A DNA stretch of 64,000 nucleotides, taken from Selenomonas sp. AE3005. Lineage in GTDB: Bacteria; Bacillota; Negativicutes; Selenomonadales; Selenomonadaceae. This document shows positions 6,159 through 47,405 of this stretch, piece by piece. The stretch lies in contig NZ_KK366040.1 in NCBI RefSeq assembly GCF_000686945.1, positions 1-64,000 on the forward strand, given 5' to 3'. Position numbers and translations under genes: made by a program. The notes beneath the pieces were generated by a model. That model was given only the letters and a program-made list of their open reading frames with translations, did no database searches and was not told the DNA's origin. Each line of letters begins with the position of its first letter. Position 1 is the first letter of the stretch.

Positions 6159-6920
6159 TTACATAAAGTGACAGCCCACCATTTCAGTTTGGCTGGCCAC
6201 CGTCAAATCAAGATTCAGTCCCTGACCTTCCAAAATACTCTGTACGGTTGTTTCCGCCAGTTCCGGCCGGTTATTCTCCTCAGACAAGTGGGCTAAAAAC
6301 ACTTTCTCCGGACGCTTTTGCATGCGAATCAGCGCCCAGGCAGCGTCGGAATTAGCAAGATGCCCACGATTCGAGAGAATCCGCCTTTTCAACGGCCAGG
6401 GATAAGCTCCCTGTTTTAAAACTTCGGGGTCATGGTTAGATTCCAGAATAAGAACGTCTGCGCCTTCCAAGGCAGCCTGCACGCTGGAAGTCACAAAGCC
6501 CAAATCCGTGGCTATGGTAACATTTTTTCGCCCCCACAGGCGATATCCCACCGGTTCAGCCGCATCATGCGGAATATTAAAGGCCTCCACCTGAAGTCCC
6601 TTTACAGAAAAGCGTTCCCCAATAGGACAAAAACACTCCGCCGGAATCGACGAACGTTCTTTCATGTTTGCAATGGTACCAGGCCGGGTATAAATAGGCA
6701 GGTGATACCACTTGCACAACGTAACCAGGCCGGCTACATGGTCACGATGTTCGTGCGTGATGAGCACGCCGTCCAGGTCTGACGCCTCCACGCCAAAACT
6801 GGCTAGTCCTTTTTTTATTTTCGTGGCACTAATGCCAGCGTCAATCAGCAGTTTCGTGCCATCCATTTCCACAAAAACAGCATTTCCCTTGCTGCCGCTG
6901 GCCAAAATCCTAACCTGCAT
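6159..6920 (-). CDS. walJ: Metallo-beta-lactamase fold hydrolase, YycJ/WalJ family
   Basis: A 253-aa MBL-fold hydrolase with the zinc-binding signature THEHRDH near residues 56-62 and the family N-terminus RILASGSKGN. WalJ/YycJ proteins are thought to act as DNA exonucleases that coordinate replication with cell division, but the substrate is not proven. The chosen ATG has GGAG eight bases upstream; an earlier in-frame ATG at 6938 lacks a site. It leads the walJ-htrA-rlmH group. Confidence 0.88.
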   Translation of the reverse strand: MQVRILASGSKGNAVFVEMDGTKLLIDAGISATKIKKGLASFGVEASDLDGVLITHEHRDHVAGLVTLCKWYHLPIYTRPGTIANMKERSSIPAECFCPIGERFSVKGLQVEAFNIPHDAAEPVGYRLWGRKNVTIATDLGFVTSSVQAALEGADVLILESNHDPEVLKQGAYPWPLKRRILSNRGHLANSDAAWALIRMQKRPEKVFLAHLSEENNRPELAETTVQSILEGQGLNLDLTVASQTEMVGCHFM

Positions 6921-42408: not shown

Positions 42409-43701
42409 TTACGGGCGCGGCTTGCCGCACTCCGCACAGAATTTGCCGCTGTTCTTGGCACCACAGTCGCAAATCCAGTCACCGGCCGGACGGGGCTTGC
42501 CACATTCAGAGCAGAACTTGCCCGTGTTTTTCGCACCGCACTCGCAGGTCCAGCCATCATCGGGCTTGGGCTGGCCGCATTCGGAGCAGAATTTGCCCGT
42601 ATTGCCGGCCTTGCCGCAAGCACAGGTCCAGCCGCCAGCTGCCGACTGCTGTACGGCAGCCTGCTGAGCCTGGGCTGCTCTTTGCGCCTGTCCCTGAGCC
42701 ATTAGGTCGCCCACGTTGACGCCGTTGGCACCTGCAGCCATATTCATCCCCATAAAGCCAATCGCCGCCCCGCCTTCATTCTTGGCTGCATCACGCAGGG
42801 CATCAGCCTGTGCAGCGCCGTACATTCCAGCCATCAAGGACGGGTCGCGCCCCAGGACAGCAGCCTCCTGCATCTTCTGAAGTTTTTCCAGTACTGCCTG
42901 GCTTTCTTCAGTAAGGCTGACGCTGGCCACGGCTACGGAAACGACTTCGATACCGCGCAGGTTGCCCCATTTCTGGCTGAGGTTTTCGTTTAATGCGTCA
43001 GCGATATCCGCGGAATGAGCCTCTAACTCATCATAGCCCACGCGCATGGCAGAAATTTTCGCCATGGCCGGTTTCAAGGCCATCATGAGTTCCGATTTCA
43101 GCTGGCTGTCAATTTCTTCCCGGGAGAAGGTGTCACTGACATTGCTGGCAATATTGGTGTAAAAGAGAATCGGATTGGTAATACGATAACTGTACTCACC
43201 AAAGCAACGAATCTGAATCGTCTGTTCGTAGTTCAGGGTATCGTCGCGCACCTTAAAGGCAATAGGTGACGGTGTCCCGAACTTGTTGCCGTAGATTTCC
43301 TTGGTATTCACATAGTATACGCGCTGGTCACGGCCCGTATCGCCGCCAAAGGAGAATCGGCGGCCGATTTCCGAAAATACCTTGGGAATGGTGTCCGAAA
43401 GGTCACCGGCAAACAGCGAGGGCTCAGTTTCCCGGTCATAGGTGTATTCACCCGGTTCGGCACAAATATCCACCACTTCACCATTTTCCACAATGATGAG
43501 ACACTGGCCGTTGTTGACAGCAACCCGCGAGCCCTGCGAGATGATGTTGTCGTCGCCATTGTTGGAGCTGCCCTTGCCCGTCTTGCGGTGTCCCTTGGCC
43601 ATAAGCACATTCGGCGGCAGGCTGTCACAATAGATATATTCCTTCCACTGATCCCCCAAGACGCCGCCTACGGCTCCCATACCTGCTTGTAAAAGTCCCA
43701 T
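42409..43701 (-). CDS. SPFH-domain protein with three C-terminal zinc ribbons (YdjI-like)
   Basis: A 430-aa protein. The N-terminal 290 residues are an SPFH/virion-core-like domain of the YdjI family (GDQWKEYIYCDSLPPNVLMA, GEPGEYTYD-like turn, DALNENLSQKWGNLRGIEV). A Gln/Ala-rich hinge leads to three tandem zinc ribbons of about 25 residues each (WTCACGKAG...FCSECG, WTCECGAKN...FCSECG, WICDCGAKN...FCAECG). ATG 43701 follows GGAGGTAAAG. As first gene of the operon it is the likely scaffold of a membrane stress complex. No pspA-like gene is in the window. Confidence 0.85.
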   Translation of the reverse strand: MGLLQAGMGAVGGVLGDQWKEYIYCDSLPPNVLMAKGHRKTGKGSSNNGDDNIISQGSRVAVNNGQCLIIVENGEVVDICAEPGEYTYDRETEPSLFAGDLSDTIPKVFSEIGRRFSFGGDTGRDQRVYYVNTKEIYGNKFGTPSPIAFKVRDDTLNYEQTIQIRCFGEYSYRITNPILFYTNIASNVSDTFSREEIDSQLKSELMMALKPAMAKISAMRVGYDELEAHSADIADALNENLSQKWGNLRGIEVVSVAVASVSLTEESQAVLEKLQKMQEAAVLGRDPSLMAGMYGAAQADALRDAAKNEGGAAIGFMGMNMAAGANGVNVGDLMAQGQAQRAAQAQQAAVQQSAAGGWTCACGKAGNTGKFCSECGQPKPDDGWTCECGAKNTGKFCSECGKPRPAGDWICDCGAKNSGKFCAECGKPRP

Positions 43702-43765
43702 AATCTTTACCTCCTGTTTCAAAATATTTGGTGTTTACTTCGCCATCACTCCCCCAAATTCCCCC

Positions 43766-43794
43766 TTGCAATGGTATAATAAAAATGCTATACT
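43766..43794 (+). promoter_or_regulatory. tRNA-Gly promoter
   Basis: TTGCAA (43766-43771), 17-bp spacer, TATACT (43789-43794); the mature tRNA starts 13 bases later. Confidence 0.7.
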
Positions 43795-43806
43795 AAAAGA
43801 GTTCTT

Positions 43807-43880
43807 GCGGGCATAGTTCATCGGTAGAATGAAAGCTTCCCAAGCTTTAGAGGTGGGTTCGACTCCCATTGCCCGCTCCA
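43807..43880 (+). tRNA. tRNA-Gly (anticodon CCC)
   Basis: Seventy-four bases including encoded CCA. Acceptor GCGGGCA/TGCCCGC, D stem GTTC/GAAT, anticodon stem AAAGC/GCTTT around TTCCCAA, T stem GTGGG/CCCAT with TTCGACT. Its 3' 44 bases plus six more are duplicated exactly at 45869-45918, so the gene served as an attachment site and remains intact at the left junction. Confidence 0.97.
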
Positions 43881-43885
43881 TAAGA
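43836..43885 (+). repeat. attL-like 50-bp direct repeat in the 3' part of tRNA-Gly
   Basis: Starts CTTCCCAAGC in the anticodon loop and ends CCATAAGA just past CCA. It is identical over 50 bp to 45869-45918. Confidence 0.9.
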
Positions 43886-43891
43886 GATTAC

Positions 43892-43918
43892 AGGAGTTGC
43901 TATAGCAACTCCTTTTTT
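43892..43918 (+). terminator. Terminator after tRNA-Gly (island side)
   Basis: AGGAGTTGC-TATA-GCAACTCCT followed by TTTTTT. A different terminator follows the truncated tRNA copy on the right, so one of the two came with the island. Confidence 0.85.
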
Positions 43919-43928
43919 GATGCTATGA

Positions 43929-44069
43929 TTATAACGAGGCAAGAAAATGTCCCCCACCTCAGCAGGTGGGGGCACGAATACCAAAACAGGCGGCGAGCAT
44001 ATCTCCCGCCTCGTTGAAACGCCAAGAGGAAGTTTTGCCTATGGCAAAACTGGAACAACGGCGTTATAA
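43929..44069. repeat. 141-bp structured element containing dispersed-repeat copy B
   Basis: Begins TTATAACG and ends CGTTATAA. Inside are a perfect 9-bp hairpin CCCCCACCT/AGGTGGGGG (43951-43972), an inverted pair AACGAGGC/GCCTCGTT, and at the right the 37-bp repeat (44033-44069) shared with 6983-7019. No coding potential. Could be a MITE or a structured RNA. Confidence 0.6.
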
Positions 44070-44110
44070 AAAAGCTCATGGCCGAGAGCAAATCTCTCCC
44101 AACCATGAGC
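44068..44110 (-). terminator. Terminator of the Rpn gene group
   Basis: On the minus strand GCTCATGG ... CCATGAGC (44110-44103 with 44081-44074) plus inner GAGAG/CTCTC and a following T6. Confidence 0.75.
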
Positions 44111-44116
44111 TAATCA

Positions 44117-44230
44117 TCATATTGCAAATCCGTTCTGTCTGGCAATATCCAATCCCTTATCCTTGGAAATCTCCAAAGCATCTGCGATGGCCTCAGGAGA
44201 CTTATGCTTCTTTAGCTTAGACAAGACCAT
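44117..44230 (-). pseudogene. C-terminal tail remnant of an Rpn-type protein (37 codons)
   Basis: Open from ATG 44230 to TGA: KLKKHKSPEAIADALEIS followed by KDKGLDIARQNGFAI. The pattern of a short Lys-rich linker plus a helix with SPEAIADAL is that of the tail of Rpn/DUF-type nuclease-like proteins, as in the two upstream genes. No SD or catalytic part remains. Confidence 0.5.
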
Positions 44231-44241
44231 TTAGGTCAACA

Positions 44242-44529
44242 TTACCTTTCTTGCTTTGCCTTAATCTCTTTAACATCCTCAGCCGTTATTTTTCCTAATG
44301 AAAGCAATAGCTTTATCATTTCATCCCGGCCTTCTTCCCGGCCTTCTTCCCGGCCTTCTTCTCGACCTTTTTCTCGGCCTTCCTTGCGCCCCTCATCAAT
44401 CCAAGCGGCCTTGTCAGATTCGTAATCCATGATTGCCATTTCACGGTTCAGATATTTTAATCGTTCATCGCTATTTTGCATAAATATTGCCGTGGCATCC
44501 AATGCAGTCTGAATAGAAACCTCATTCAT
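44242..44529 (-). CDS. Truncated Rpn-family protein: linker and tail only
   Basis: A 95-aa product with no nuclease core. It contains DYESDKAAWIDEGRKEGR, then a Gly-Arg-Glu-Glu repeat encoded by near-identical 12-bp units (44329-44385), and the tail MIKLLLSLGKITAEDVKEIK. Matching tails occur in the intact neighbour. ATG 44529 follows GGAGGA, so translation is possible. It is probably the 3' end of a decayed Rpn-type gene, although independent use as a regulator of the neighbour is conceivable. Confidence 0.6.
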   Translation of the reverse strand: MNEVSIQTALDATAIFMQNSDERLKYLNREMAIMDYESDKAAWIDEGRKEGREKGREEGREEGREEGRDEMIKLLLSLGKITAEDVKEIKAKQER

Positions 44530-44569
44530 GGCTAGTTCCTCCATTTTAAAGGAAATGCAGGCAAAACAC

Positions 44570-45529
44570 TTATTGTTGCAATGACTTAATTTGTGCATCT
44601 GTCATTCCGGTAGCCTGTTTAACCGCTTCTACTGTCACCAATCCAAGTGATAACATTTTTTTGATAGTTTCATCGCGTCCTTCTTCACGGCCAGCTTCAC
44701 GCCCCAGATTTATTCCTTCATTACGAGCATCCGTTACCATATCATCTATTGCCTTGCACACATCAATCCGCTCCTCTCCAATGGGAAAGTTGAAATTTTG
44801 TCCAGAACAAACACTTATTGTCTGTGCCGCTAAACGATCTAATGATTTGTAATCCTGATTATTATTTACCAAATTTGCCAGTTCTTGCTTATCCCTGGAA
44901 TGCTTGATGAACTTCAATACGGCCTTTAGATCTGACCGAAAAACATCCAGTTGTTCATCCGTCATCTGCGCCGGTGAAATCAAATTCACCTTATATTCGT
45001 TTGCGTAATGCAAAATTCTCTCGTCCAGCCCCTCCGGATACATTTCTCGCAGGGTAACAGGCGCCTCCCACTCATCAGCTCCCCAATATATCACCAAGGT
45101 GATAACAGGCAGCAGCTTATCTTCACGGTGAAAGCCCGACAAATATTCTGCACTATCTTTTCCCCTGTTATGTGCCTCCTTATGCGAGTTAGCCGCCGCA
45201 GCCACCTGCTCAGCCAATGTCATGGCGTCGTATAACATATTCCGGACGGGCATAGCCGTATGAATCTTTGATTGATTCTCCACGCCTAAAATACAATACG
45301 CTGCCTTTCCATCAGTCTTTAGTGCCAATTTCAGTACATCTCTGGCCTTCTGCTTAGGCAGTGGTGCTCCGTCTTCTCCATAGGGGAGGACAATGCTGGC
45401 TGTATCCATATCTTTAAGCTCATCCGGATGAAGCTTTTCCTCGCCTCCGAAGCAGAATCCATTGAAAAGGTCTGCAAAACGCTCCGGTTGTTTCATGTAT
45501 TGCTTGGTTATAGAATCTTTATCTCCCAA
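44570..45529 (-). CDS. Rpn-family recombination-promoting nuclease/putative transposase
   Basis: About 319 aa. The N-terminus (GDKDSITKQYMKQPERFADL) and YCILGVENQSKIHTAMPVR are the PD-(D/E)xK nuclease signatures of the Rpn/Transposase_31 family, with Glu-Asn-Gln in place of ExQ. Later YLSGFHREDKLLPVITLVIY and a GREAGREEGRDE linker with the tail ETIKKMLSLGLVTVEAV. Rpn proteins cut DNA and stimulate recA-independent recombination; whether they transpose is unclear. A TTG at 45529 has GAGGTG seven bases upstream; ATG 45544 is an alternative. It is the only intact gene of the island. Confidence 0.8.
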   Translation of the reverse strand: MGDKDSITKQYMKQPERFADLFNGFCFGGEEKLHPDELKDMDTASIVLPYGEDGAPLPKQKARDVLKLALKTDGKAAYCILGVENQSKIHTAMPVRNMLYDAMTLAEQVAAAANSHKEAHNRGKDSAEYLSGFHREDKLLPVITLVIYWGADEWEAPVTLREMYPEGLDERILHYANEYKVNLISPAQMTDEQLDVFRSDLKAVLKFIKHSRDKQELANLVNNNQDYKSLDRLAAQTISVCSGQNFNFPIGEERIDVCKAIDDMVTDARNEGINLGREAGREEGRDETIKKMLSLGLVTVEAVKQATGMTDAQIKSLQQ

Positions 45530-45564
45530 TTGCCAGCACCTCATTTCCTATTTGGTATATCTCA

Positions 45565-45594
45565 ATTATACAGCAGTCTGCGTAAAAGTGTCTA
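45565..45594 (-). promoter_or_regulatory. Promoter of the Rpn gene
   Basis: TAGACA (45594-45589), 18-bp spacer, TATAAT (45570-45565) on the minus strand, directly upstream of the nuclease gene. Confidence 0.65.
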
Positions 45595-45734
45595 TGCTTT
45601 TTCGCCCCTAATCGATTTCATCAAATTGTATTTTCCATTCTGTAATCTTGTTTTATTGAGCCTTCACTCTACAGGCGATAGTCTTCACTATTCGCGTTTT
45701 ACACCTTATTTGCACCTTATCGAGCCTCAAACGA

Positions 45735-45764
45735 CCGCAAATAACTGCAAATATCTGCAAATAT
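45735..45764. repeat. Three tandem 10-bp repeats near the right island junction
   Basis: CCGCAAATAA, CTGCAAATAT, CTGCAAATAT in succession. A related pair CACCTTATT/CACCTTATC lies at 45702-45721. Repeats at this position could be arm-type integrase sites. Nothing else in 45545-45868 looks like a gene; a CCCTT/AAGGG hairpin lies near 45795-45820. Confidence 0.45.
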
Positions 45765-45868
45765 CAATTTCTGCATCGCAAGATAAAAATGCCGCCACCC
45801 CTTGAAAATAAAGGGCTGACGGCCTATAATGAATTTATCGCATTTGATGGGCGGATAATGAGCCTAGA

Positions 45869-45918
45869 CTTCCCAAGCTTTAGAGGTGGGTTCGACTCCC
45901 ATTGCCCGCTCCATAAGA
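45869..45918 (+). repeat. attR-like 50-bp copy of the tRNA-Gly 3' half
   Basis: Identical to 43836-43885 over 50 bp. The bases upstream of it do not resemble the tRNA 5' half, so it cannot fold as a tRNA. Confidence 0.9.
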
Positions 45919-45925
45919 AAAATTA

Positions 45926-45951
45926 AACCTCTGCATAAGCAGAGGTTTTTT
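45926..45951 (+). terminator. Terminator beyond the right island junction
   Basis: AACCTCTGC-ATAA-GCAGAGGTT then T6. Lying immediately after the truncated tRNA copy, it is probably the original tRNA-Gly terminator before integration. Confidence 0.8.
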
Positions 45952-45962
45952 GGTATTTGTAT

Positions 45963-46193
45963 TCAAATAAGTTCATTATGCTTTAATTGCCTGTACAATG
46001 TATAAAAAGCCGCAGGAAAGCCTAGTATAATACCGCCGATTATGCCGGCTTTGCCCAGCTGGAGATAATCCCCCAGCAGGCTGCCAATATAGCCGCAGAT
46101 ACCTACAAACACCACGAGGTATATGCCAACACCGCCGAGAATTGAGAAGGCCTTGACTGCCTGTTTCAGCCCGCTTTCTGTTTTTTTCTGCAT
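45963..46193 (-). CDS. atpZ: AtpZ/AtpI-family membrane protein
   Basis: A 76-aa protein with two membrane helices (GGVGIYLVVFVGICGYIGSL and IIGGIILGFPAAFYTLYRQL) in the AtpZ/AtpI pattern. These small proteins usually precede F-type ATP synthase genes and aid c-ring assembly or Mg handling. Here the next sequence downstream is the tRNA island, with no atp gene visible, so the ATP synthase operon either lies elsewhere or was separated by rearrangement. GGGAG precedes the ATG. Confidence 0.78.
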   Translation of the reverse strand: MQKKTESGLKQAVKAFSILGGVGIYLVVFVGICGYIGSLLGDYLQLGKAGIIGGIILGFPAAFYTLYRQLKHNELI

Positions 46194-46210
46194 GATAGTT
46201 CTCCCTTGTA

Positions 46211-46240
46211 AAAAAGCCTTCCCCTCAGGGAAGGCTTTTA
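46211..46240 (-). terminator. Terminator of wecB
   Basis: AAAGCCTTCCC/GGGAAGGCTTT (46213-46238) with a four-base loop, and T5 on the minus strand. Confidence 0.85.
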
Positions 46241-46241
46241 T

Positions 46242-47405
46242 TTATTTACCGCTGAATACATCAGGACGGCTGTCTGCCAGTCCATAATGATAGAGAATTG
46301 CCTGAATGATACGTGCGGAGGCTTTGCCGTCACCATAGGGGTTGACGGATTCAGCCATACGGCTGTATTCTTCCTTATCCGTAAGCAGAGTTTTAGCCTC
46401 GCTGTAGACGCGTTCGCTGTCCGTACCGATTAACTTCACCGTACCGGCAGCCACGGCCTCGGGGCGTTCGGTGGTATCACGCAGTACCAGGACAGGCTTA
46501 CCCAGCGCCGGAGCCTCTTCCTGCACACCGCCGGAGTCCGTCAGAATCAAATGTGCCTTGTGCATGAGGTTGGCAAAAGGTTCATAATCCAAGGGGTCGA
46601 TAAGGTGAACTTTCTGCAAATCGCCCAGTTCTTCCTTAACCACTTCCCGGACTTTCGGGTTTTTGTGCACGGGGAAAACAACTTCCACGTCGTCAAAGTC
46701 TTCCGTCAGACGGCGCAAAGCCTTGTAGACATGGCGCATGGGCTCGCCCAGATTTTCCCGGCGATGGGTAGTTACCAATATAATGCGCTTATTTTCAAAG
46801 TCGATGTTCCGCAGCATATCATCCGCGAACTGGAAATCTTCACGTACGGTATGGTGCAGGGCGTCAATAACCGTATTGCCCGTTACAAAAATGCTGTCGT
46901 CCTTTACATTTTCTGCCAGCAGATTGCTTTCCGAGGTTTCCGTGGGCGCAAAGTTCAAATCAGCAATGCAGCCCGTCAGCTTACGGTTCATTTCCTCGGG
47001 GAACGGCGAATATTTATTGTGCGTGCGCAGGCCGGCCTCTACATGGCCGACTGTCGTCTGATGGTAGTAAGCAGCCAGAGCACCGGCAAAGGTGGTCGTG
47101 GTATCACCATGTACCAGCACGATGTCCGGCTTTTCCTGTTCCAGCACCTTATCCAGGCCCATCATAGCCTTGGTCGTAATATCAAAGAGGGTTTGTCCCT
47201 GCGCCATGATATCAAGGTCGTAATCCGGCGTGATATTAAACAGTCCCAGTACCTGGTCCAGCATTTCGCGATGCTGTGCCGTAACCGCCACAATGGGCAC
47301 AATCTTGTCGGGGTGCTTTTGCAGCTCCAGCACGATAGGCGCCATTTTAATGGCCTCCGGACGGGTACCAAACACCGTCATAACCTTGATTTTCTTTTGT
47401 TCCAT
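46242..47405 (-). CDS. wecB: UDP-N-acetylglucosamine 2-epimerase (non-hydrolysing)
   Basis: A 387-aa enzyme interconverting UDP-GlcNAc and UDP-ManNAc. Landmarks: TVFGTRPEAIKMAPIVLEL, AGLRTHNKYSPFPEEMNR, VTTHRRENLGEPM and LTDSGGVQEEAPALGKPVL. It follows wecA in the same direction. Unlike CapG at 23060 it is outside the O-antigen locus, so it probably supplies UDP-ManNAc for a common envelope polymer. Confidence 0.96.
   Translation of the reverse strand: MEQKKIKVMTVFGTRPEAIKMAPIVLELQKHPDKIVPIVAVTAQHREMLDQVLGLFNITPDYDLDIMAQGQTLFDITTKAMMGLDKVLEQEKPDIVLVHGDTTTTFAGALAAYYHQTTVGHVEAGLRTHNKYSPFPEEMNRKLTGCIADLNFAPTETSESNLLAENVKDDSIFVTGNTVIDALHHTVREDFQFADDMLRNIDFENKRIILVTTHRRENLGEPMRHVYKALRRLTEDFDDVEVVFPVHKNPKVREVVKEELGDLQKVHLIDPLDYEPFANLMHKAHLILTDSGGVQEEAPALGKPVLVLRDTTERPEAVAAGTVKLIGTDSERVYSEAKTLLTDKEEYSRMAESVNPYGDGKASARIIQAILYHYGLADSRPDVFSGK

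Follow-up and report, generated by a model that had tools for sequence, protein, structure and literature searches.

Probable relic of an integrative mobilizable element in the tRNA-Gly(CCC) gene of Selenomonas sp. AE3005

The window analysed here is the whole stretch of 64,000 nucleotides at positions 1 to 64,000 of contig NZ_KK366040.1 of Selenomonas sp. AE3005 (assembly GCF_000686945.1; 2,823,367 bases in 25 contigs). Its tRNA-Gly(CCC) gene holds a small island that is very probably the relic of an integrative mobilizable element of the tyrosine-integrase type. This reading is carried by two copies of the tRNA 3' half, by empty sites in relatives, by an arm repeat that stands at the right end at the distance seen in relatives, and by a complete relative that has the same build at both ends. 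The comparison further indicates that one lineage of mobilizable-element integrases in the Negativicutes, which uses the same core in the anticodon loop and the same arm repeats, probably integrates in two modes. In the first, the tRNA is rebuilt over a long core, as in the complete relative G270 and in the fossil of the window. In the second, found in five genomes, the host tRNA is permanently broken and a complete replacement tRNA is delivered in the left arm, with the element taking over the host tRNA gene. Islands that decay would tend to keep rpn toxin–antitoxin genes. The comparison genomes, many of which are drafts, are given below as G numbers and stretches of them as L numbers.

The tRNA-Gly(CCC) locus and its empty sites

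The features on which the argument is built are listed below in window coordinates.

43807..43880, + strand: intact tRNA-Gly(CCC) (ARAGORN; Rfam tRNA, 62.9 bits)
43836..43885, + strand: left copy of the 50-bp repeat, attL (pairwise identity); its tRNA 3' half would have been supplied by the element
45869..45918, + strand: right copy of the 50-bp repeat, attR; it would be the displaced native tRNA 3' half
43892..43913, + strand: terminator A, a stem-loop that would be part of the left arm (hairpin search)
45925..45948, + strand: terminator B, apparently the native terminator of the tRNA (hairpin search; comparison with relatives)
45702..45720, + strand: putative arm-type double repeat CACCTTAT-TTG-CACCTTAT at the right end (motif searches, relatives)

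The tRNA-Gly(CCC) gene is the only tRNA gene that ARAGORN detected in the window, and an Rfam scan of positions 43001-47000 gave nothing else that reached the gathering score. An earlier note on this DNA had described that the tRNA 3' half recurs as an exact 50-bp copy and that a terminator stands behind each of the two; both points were confirmed. The copies are 100% identical over exactly 50 bp and are spaced by 2,033 bp. The identity starts at CTTCCCAAG, which is the anticodon loop of tRNA-Gly(CCC), and ends a few bases past CCA. An exact repeat of this length is far beyond chance. Allowing up to three mismatches, the tRNA 3' half was found twice in its own genome, both times at this locus, while among the 21 other genomes of the genus it was found once in 12 and not at all in nine. 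Eight of these nine have a tRNA-Gly(CCC) of diverged sequence; in the ninth, G010 (68% complete), no tRNA-Gly(CCC) was seen. Terminator-like sites are more frequent in the region than expected by chance (7 found vs 2.3 +/- 1.8), and terminator A is similar to the terminator of G002 and G006.

The island is flanked upstream by an SPFH/Band 7 gene and downstream by an AtpZ-like gene of 76 amino acids and wecB (UDP-GlcNAc 2-epimerase). The wecB product shares 88-93% identity with its counterparts in records named S. ruminantium, which places the genome in the S. ruminantium group. The empty site was found in three of the 21 genomes (G004, G005, and G015), where the SPFH gene, a single tRNA-Gly with the terminator directly behind it, the atpZ-like gene, and wecB follow one another with nothing inserted. 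Since such sites exist, relatives do not always carry both tRNA pieces, and the island in tRNA-Gly(CCC) proposed by the earlier note stands. G013 has an element in its tRNA-Gly(CCC). The gene adjoins other genes in G002, G006, and G007 and lies in other neighbourhoods in ten genomes (G001, G003, G008, G009, and G016-G021). In G011 the tRNA and atpZ are on separate contigs, and in G010 only the atpZ side was seen.

G012 and G014 carry a different insert of ~1.2 kb between tRNA-Gly and atpZ, without a tRNA repeat; in this insert (L124, L125), G012 has an open reading frame (ORF) of 212 amino acids with no Pfam match. The far side of tRNA-Gly(CCC) also varies among the genomes of the S. ruminantium group, with a HAD gene or another cluster replacing atpZ-wecB (L121, L122, and L123 as against L034 and L020), which makes the 3' end of this tRNA a breakpoint of synteny.

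Arm repeat, complete relative, and replacement tRNAs

The right tRNA half of the window is preceded by ACACCTTATTTGCACCTTATCGAGC, and the double repeat at 45702-45720 reads CACCTTATTTGCACCTTAT (19 bp). In the 22 genomes of the genus (up to two mismatches) it was found only in the window and in G013, exact in both. In 189 genomes of the family (up to one mismatch) it occurs at seven places in five genomes (the window, G013, G053 twice, G150, and G188 twice), as against none for the control pattern. Six of the seven places are at a tRNA-Gly(CCC) or half of one, and each of the five genomes has such a place. The exact 19-mer was also found in G247, a genome from another family, 49 bp behind tRNA-Arg(CCT), where a 43%-identical integrase with one internal stop lies ~1 kb beyond the motif. 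One IMG/VR contig carries it as well (L190:9858-9876), 77 bp from tRNA-Arg(CCG), so the motif is not confined to this bacterial family. Its placement at tRNA-Gly(CCC), together with the occurrences at tRNA-Arg in G247 and in the IMG/VR contig, makes it look like an integrase arm-type repeat. In viral contigs the tRNA 3' half had no exact match and the G188 integrase had no relative. The seventh place (L196:8860-8878 in G188, one mismatch) lies within the element at a depth of ~2.4 kb; a radC gene stands on either side and no tRNA half adjoins it, and it is possibly the trace of an older element.

The distances between the motif and the core agree among the relatives. At the right end the gap from motif to core is 149 bp in the window, 159 bp in G053, and 160 bp in G270. 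At the left end, the gap from core to motif is 88 bp in G013, 90 bp in G053, 87 bp in G188 (exact motif at 6413), 88 bp in G150, 88 bp in G179, and 90 bp in G270; the left motif carries one mismatch in G150 and three in G179. The window therefore has the core of this tRNA-Gly(CCC) element family, CTTCCCAAG in the anticodon loop, and its arm repeat 149-160 bp before the right core. It lacks the arm repeat 87-90 bp after the left core as well as the integrase and relaxase genes of the family. The 10-bp tandem repeats that looked like arm sites in the earlier note do exist (45739..45762, + strand; repeat search), but they are not conserved in the related right ends inspected, where the repeat corresponding to 45702-45720 is the conserved one.

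A complete element was found in G270, a one-contig genome from another family of the same class. Here, tRNA-Gly(CCC) is separated by 20,675 bp from a 3' fragment of 44 nt that is identical to it; the repeat is 53 bp long, bases beyond CCA included, and the exact motif stands at both ends. The element encodes a tyrosine integrase (55-56% identical to the G188 integrase) with a small helix-turn-helix protein beside it, a MobA/VirD2-type relaxase, RadC, DUF932, and ERF proteins; it also has arsenic genes, with ArsA, an ArsP-type permease, and a protein of the low-molecular-weight phosphatase family. The tested parts of the G188 and G053 elements share the integrase, RadC, DUF932, ERF, or relaxase with G270, not every gene in both. 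In the left arm of G270 and of G247, the tRNA 3' half, the terminator, and the motif follow in that order. Both ends of an element are known for G270 and, across two contigs, for G053 only. An integrase of the G188 type (E <= 1e-70) was found in 13 of 380 genomes of the class.

In five relatives from five genera (G013, G053, G150, G179, and G188), the host tRNA stays interrupted at the anticodon loop instead of being restored, and the element brings a complete replacement tRNA-Gly(CCC) in the same direction. The replacement lies inside the left arm, 163-177 bp downstream of the broken tRNA, measured core to core. The common core measures 12 bp in G053, for which the two ends are available; in the other four, judged from one end, it is 9-12 bp. 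In G013, the 5' half of the native tRNA breaks off directly behind CTTCCCAAG. Behind it lie, in this order, element DNA containing GCACCTTATTTGCACCTTATGGAGC, an entire tRNA-Gly(CCC) that differs in sequence, and a hairpin resembling a terminator; the tyrosine integrase gene that follows is cut off by the end of the contig. In G053, whose element bears a relaxase gene, contig 56 has the 5' half and contig 81 the 3' half; assuming that both ends belong to one element, the joined halves give a normal tRNA-Gly(CCC) in ARAGORN. The native and the replacement tRNA agree at 64 of 74 positions. The host tRNA half of G150 no longer fits the 3-mismatch pattern and, judged from its sequence, is already decayed. 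Since no integrase of the G188 clade was found in G150 and G179 at E <= 1e-60, their membership is founded on the split tRNA and the motif. The window, with its 50-bp core and intact tRNA, does not have this arrangement of a short core, a broken host tRNA, and a supplied cognate.

Several other loci were noted during these comparisons. G041 has two tRNA-Gly 5' halves at contig ends, which look like one split locus; G072 has two as well. In G069, a 45%-identical integrase adjoins a tRNA-Gly(CCC) that is intact; this locus was not used, and no second tRNA fragment was found in the 28 kb inspected. Large proteins without a Pfam match, of 786, 710, and 627 amino acids, are encoded beside a tRNA end (L198:3549-5909, L269:2393-4525, and L245:11307-13190); those of 786 and 710 amino acids show distant relatedness (25% over 198 amino acids, E 1.4e-11).

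Remains of the element, the rpn unit, and competing explanations

We propose that the crossover made by the element's tyrosine integrase fell at CTTCCCAAG, within the tRNA-Gly(CCC) anticodon loop. The element would have carried a copy of the tRNA 3' half with a terminator, so that the tRNA was rebuilt on the left and the native 3' half was pushed to the right together with its native terminator. The element genes and the left arm motif would later have been deleted, and a dispersed repeat now begins at that spot. Most of what remains would be filled by the rpn unit as a passenger, perhaps because toxin–antitoxin pairs resist deletion. Homologous recombination between the two 50-bp copies might still remove the relic; site-specific excision is not to be expected. 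The other features of the island are as follows.

43931..44067, no strand assigned: dispersed repeat of 137 bp with the ends ATAACG / CGTTAT (repeat comparison, folding)
44073..44111, - strand: terminator of the rpn unit, 16 pairs (hairpin search)
about 44100..44230, - strand: short Rpn-like C-terminal tail (translation, assigned by eye)
44242..44529, - strand: ORF of 95 amino acids with the Rpn C-terminus only, RpnS candidate (translation; longer ORF 44242-44598)
44570..45544, - strand: rpn, 324 amino acids, PF04754 (profile search)
45565..45594, - strand: promoter-like site of rpn, 11/12 matches; such sites are at chance level in the region

The left end of the island still has the tRNA 3' half, followed by terminator A, as far as position 43930. 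The left arm motif would be expected to start at 43932-43935, and the dispersed repeat starts 1-4 bp earlier, at 43931. The ends ATAACG and CGTTAT are common to ten compared copies of this repeat, which folds better than 200 of 200 shuffles (z -6.35) and has at least 41 other matches in its own genome, three of them under 65 bp (best 40 of 68 candidates scored). By its sequence it is like a miniature inverted-repeat transposable element or a repetitive extragenic palindrome. It has strong hairpins and near-identical copies in the same genome, and diverged copies are present in many genomes of the genus.

Only one of the three Rpn-like genes had been called intact in the earlier note and two had been called decayed. 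The intact gene holds: the rpn product matches PF04754 above the cut-off (E 3.6e-7; 30.4 bits vs 21), so it has the nuclease domain of the Rpn toxin–antitoxin systems, while its TIGR01784 match is below the cut-off of that model. The second gene has to be read differently. An ORF of 95 amino acids starts at ATG 44529, has ggagg 8 bases upstream (Shine-Dalgarno-like), and looks like a standalone RpnS candidate that is not plainly decayed; the third is a short Rpn-like tail. On the minus strand the unit thus runs from the promoter-like site through rpn and the C-terminal ORF to the terminator. PADLOC gave no match for the two Rpn ORFs, and the best hit for Rpn among PDB sequences had an E value of 0.92. 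RpnL has been described as a toxic nuclease that is blocked by a separately made C-terminal RpnS, standalone downstream RpnS genes have been reported, and rpn genes are regarded as hitchhikers (PMC10327210; this and the other papers cited are used here from excerpts).

Related rpn genes were inspected at seven places in six genomes of the genus. At three of them, rpn is flanked by tRNA-Arg(TCT) on one side and a 3' fragment of that tRNA on the other, in islands of ~1.0 kb in G002 (L276:8581-9647; fragment of 45 nt, 95.6%), ~1.8 kb in G004 (L277:8137-10047; 18 nt, 100%), and ~4.1 kb in G015 (L186:4134-8276; 47 nt, 95.7%). These islands are integrase-less or integrase-truncated, and the start of rpn is truncated in G002 and G004. 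The G015 island keeps 101 amino acids of a tyrosine integrase C-terminus, 75% identical to a G005 integrase. In G007, rpn lies in the same neighbourhood with no tRNA found, and for G017 and the second place in G002 the contigs measure 13 and 30 kb, with no tRNA in the part inspected. In G010, rpn lies beside chromosomal genes, and the tRNA-Arg called there falls within a protein ORF and is not credible. By eye, the tRNA-Arg(TCT) islands have repeats of the type actagagcaaaaactagagcaac beside their cores. The rpn gene thus recurs in decayed islands, at two different tRNA genes, and would be a durable passenger, perhaps retained through its toxin. Given the integrase remnant in G015, this recurrence leaves the probability of the relic reading as it was.

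Several observations weigh against the relic reading. No element gene can be recognised in the island. We compared 43 ORF translations taken from stretches of G270, G188, and G053 (three lie outside the G270 element), and none had a match in the island at E 1e-3. One matched elsewhere in the window, at 61 kb, and a lax search (E up to 1) gave 15 short matches with a best E of 0.018. A panel of 25 integrases found no integrase piece in the island, which is why we speak of a relic rather than a functional island, and the left arm motif is absent. The reversed control of the motif had three matches in the genus at up to two mismatches (G009, G010, and G016) vs two for the motif itself. No motif was found at up to four mismatches in five stretches with more distant integrase relatives, namely those of G069, G142 (a 3.4-kb contig), G299 (20 kb inspected, also without a tRNA), G243, and the second G270 integrase, the last two lying ~0.2 kb from tRNA-Arg(TCT). 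Finally, G002 and G006 have a similar terminator at a tRNA without a visible element, so the element origin of terminator A is inferred, and this terminator may simply be native to the host tRNA.

The same similarity can be read as a sign of secondary restoration. The ancestor would then have been a short-core element that brought a replacement tRNA, like the one in G013 (of the relatives with the motif, the nearest), and the host-type tRNA with terminator A would have arrived later by recombination with DNA like that of G002 or G006, removing the left arm and the integrase. It would suit this scenario that the left tRNA is wholly of the host type, unlike the replacement tRNAs. However, the repeat runs a few bases past CCA, as it does in the long-core G270, and at the left end the tRNA half is still followed by the terminator until just before the motif position, so we regard restoration as unlikely. 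A local duplication of the tRNA 3' half would account for two copies identical over 50 bp, but it leaves unexplained the arm repeat, which is shared with relatives at a matching distance from the core, and the start of the repeat exactly at the core that the relatives use; it deserves hardly any credence.

Of the options named in the earlier note, the deletion of an integrase gene agrees best with the data: complete relatives carry a tyrosine integrase, and none is left in the island. A small CIME-like satellite that an integrase from another locus continues to mobilise in trans is very improbable. Two tRNA cores and one arm repeat do remain, and the genome encodes ten tyrosine recombinases (PF00589 proteins). 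Nevertheless, the left arm motif is lost, and no protein of this genome matched the G188 integrase at E <= 1e-60 (best 9 of 12 candidates scored). The sole tRNA at the recombinase loci inspected is a tRNA-Ser, and none of these loci has a tRNA-Gly. As for an active role of the Rpn protein in insertion at tRNA genes, the three tRNA-Arg(TCT) islands and the shared neighbourhood in G007 might suggest it. Against this stand the integrase remnant in G015, the tyrosine integrases of the complete relatives of the window element, the other repeats beside the tRNA-Arg cores, and the right end of the island analysed here, which is not shared with the tRNA-Arg islands. Three of the seven rpn places (G010, G017, and the second in G002) are not at a credible tRNA, and rpn genes are called not autonomously mobile in the excerpt of PMC10327210. 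We give this role next to no weight.

Relation to known systems

As a probable relic of an integrative mobilizable element, the locus resembles the tRNA-targeted islands collected by Islander (PMC4383910): a tRNA gene with a downstream 3' fragment in the same direction, a crossover in the anticodon loop, and a rebuilt target. Its displaced fragment, at 2,033 bp, is within the 2-200 kb range used there. The difference is that the island of the window has no integrase gene, and the integrase filter of Islander, as described in the excerpt, would reject it. The rpn unit resembles the RpnL/RpnS toxin–antitoxin systems (PMC10327210) in that a separate C-terminal ORF, which has 4-residue repeats, stands behind a full-length Rpn. 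This candidate pair differs in having no PADLOC match.

The five relatives that replace the host tRNA resemble the tRNA-dependent lysogeny of actinobacteriophages (PMC10865867) in their short core, in the host tRNA that is not rebuilt, and in the supplied cognate tRNA; hosts of these elements may depend on the supplied tRNA. In that work, a long-core phage (43 bp) and a short-core phage (10 bp) share one attB, which parallels G270 and the window as against the short-core relatives. The elements described here differ in belonging to Negativicutes, in bearing a relaxase (G053), and in placing the supplied tRNA inside the left arm, at 163-177 bp from the host copy that is broken, and the relic of the window is itself of the long-core form. 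In a limited check of the literature, we found no report of the tRNA-replacing mode in mobilizable elements or in Negativicutes.

The relation between the canonical and the tRNA-replacing mode is called unclear in the excerpt of PMC10865867. The locus itself is a fossil of a known kind, but it led to a family in which both modes appear to share an integrase type, a core, and an arm repeat; if this is true, the two modes can be compared within one element family. Searching for the 19-bp double repeat close to a tRNA also brings up gutted islands, which are rejected when the search relies on an integrase.

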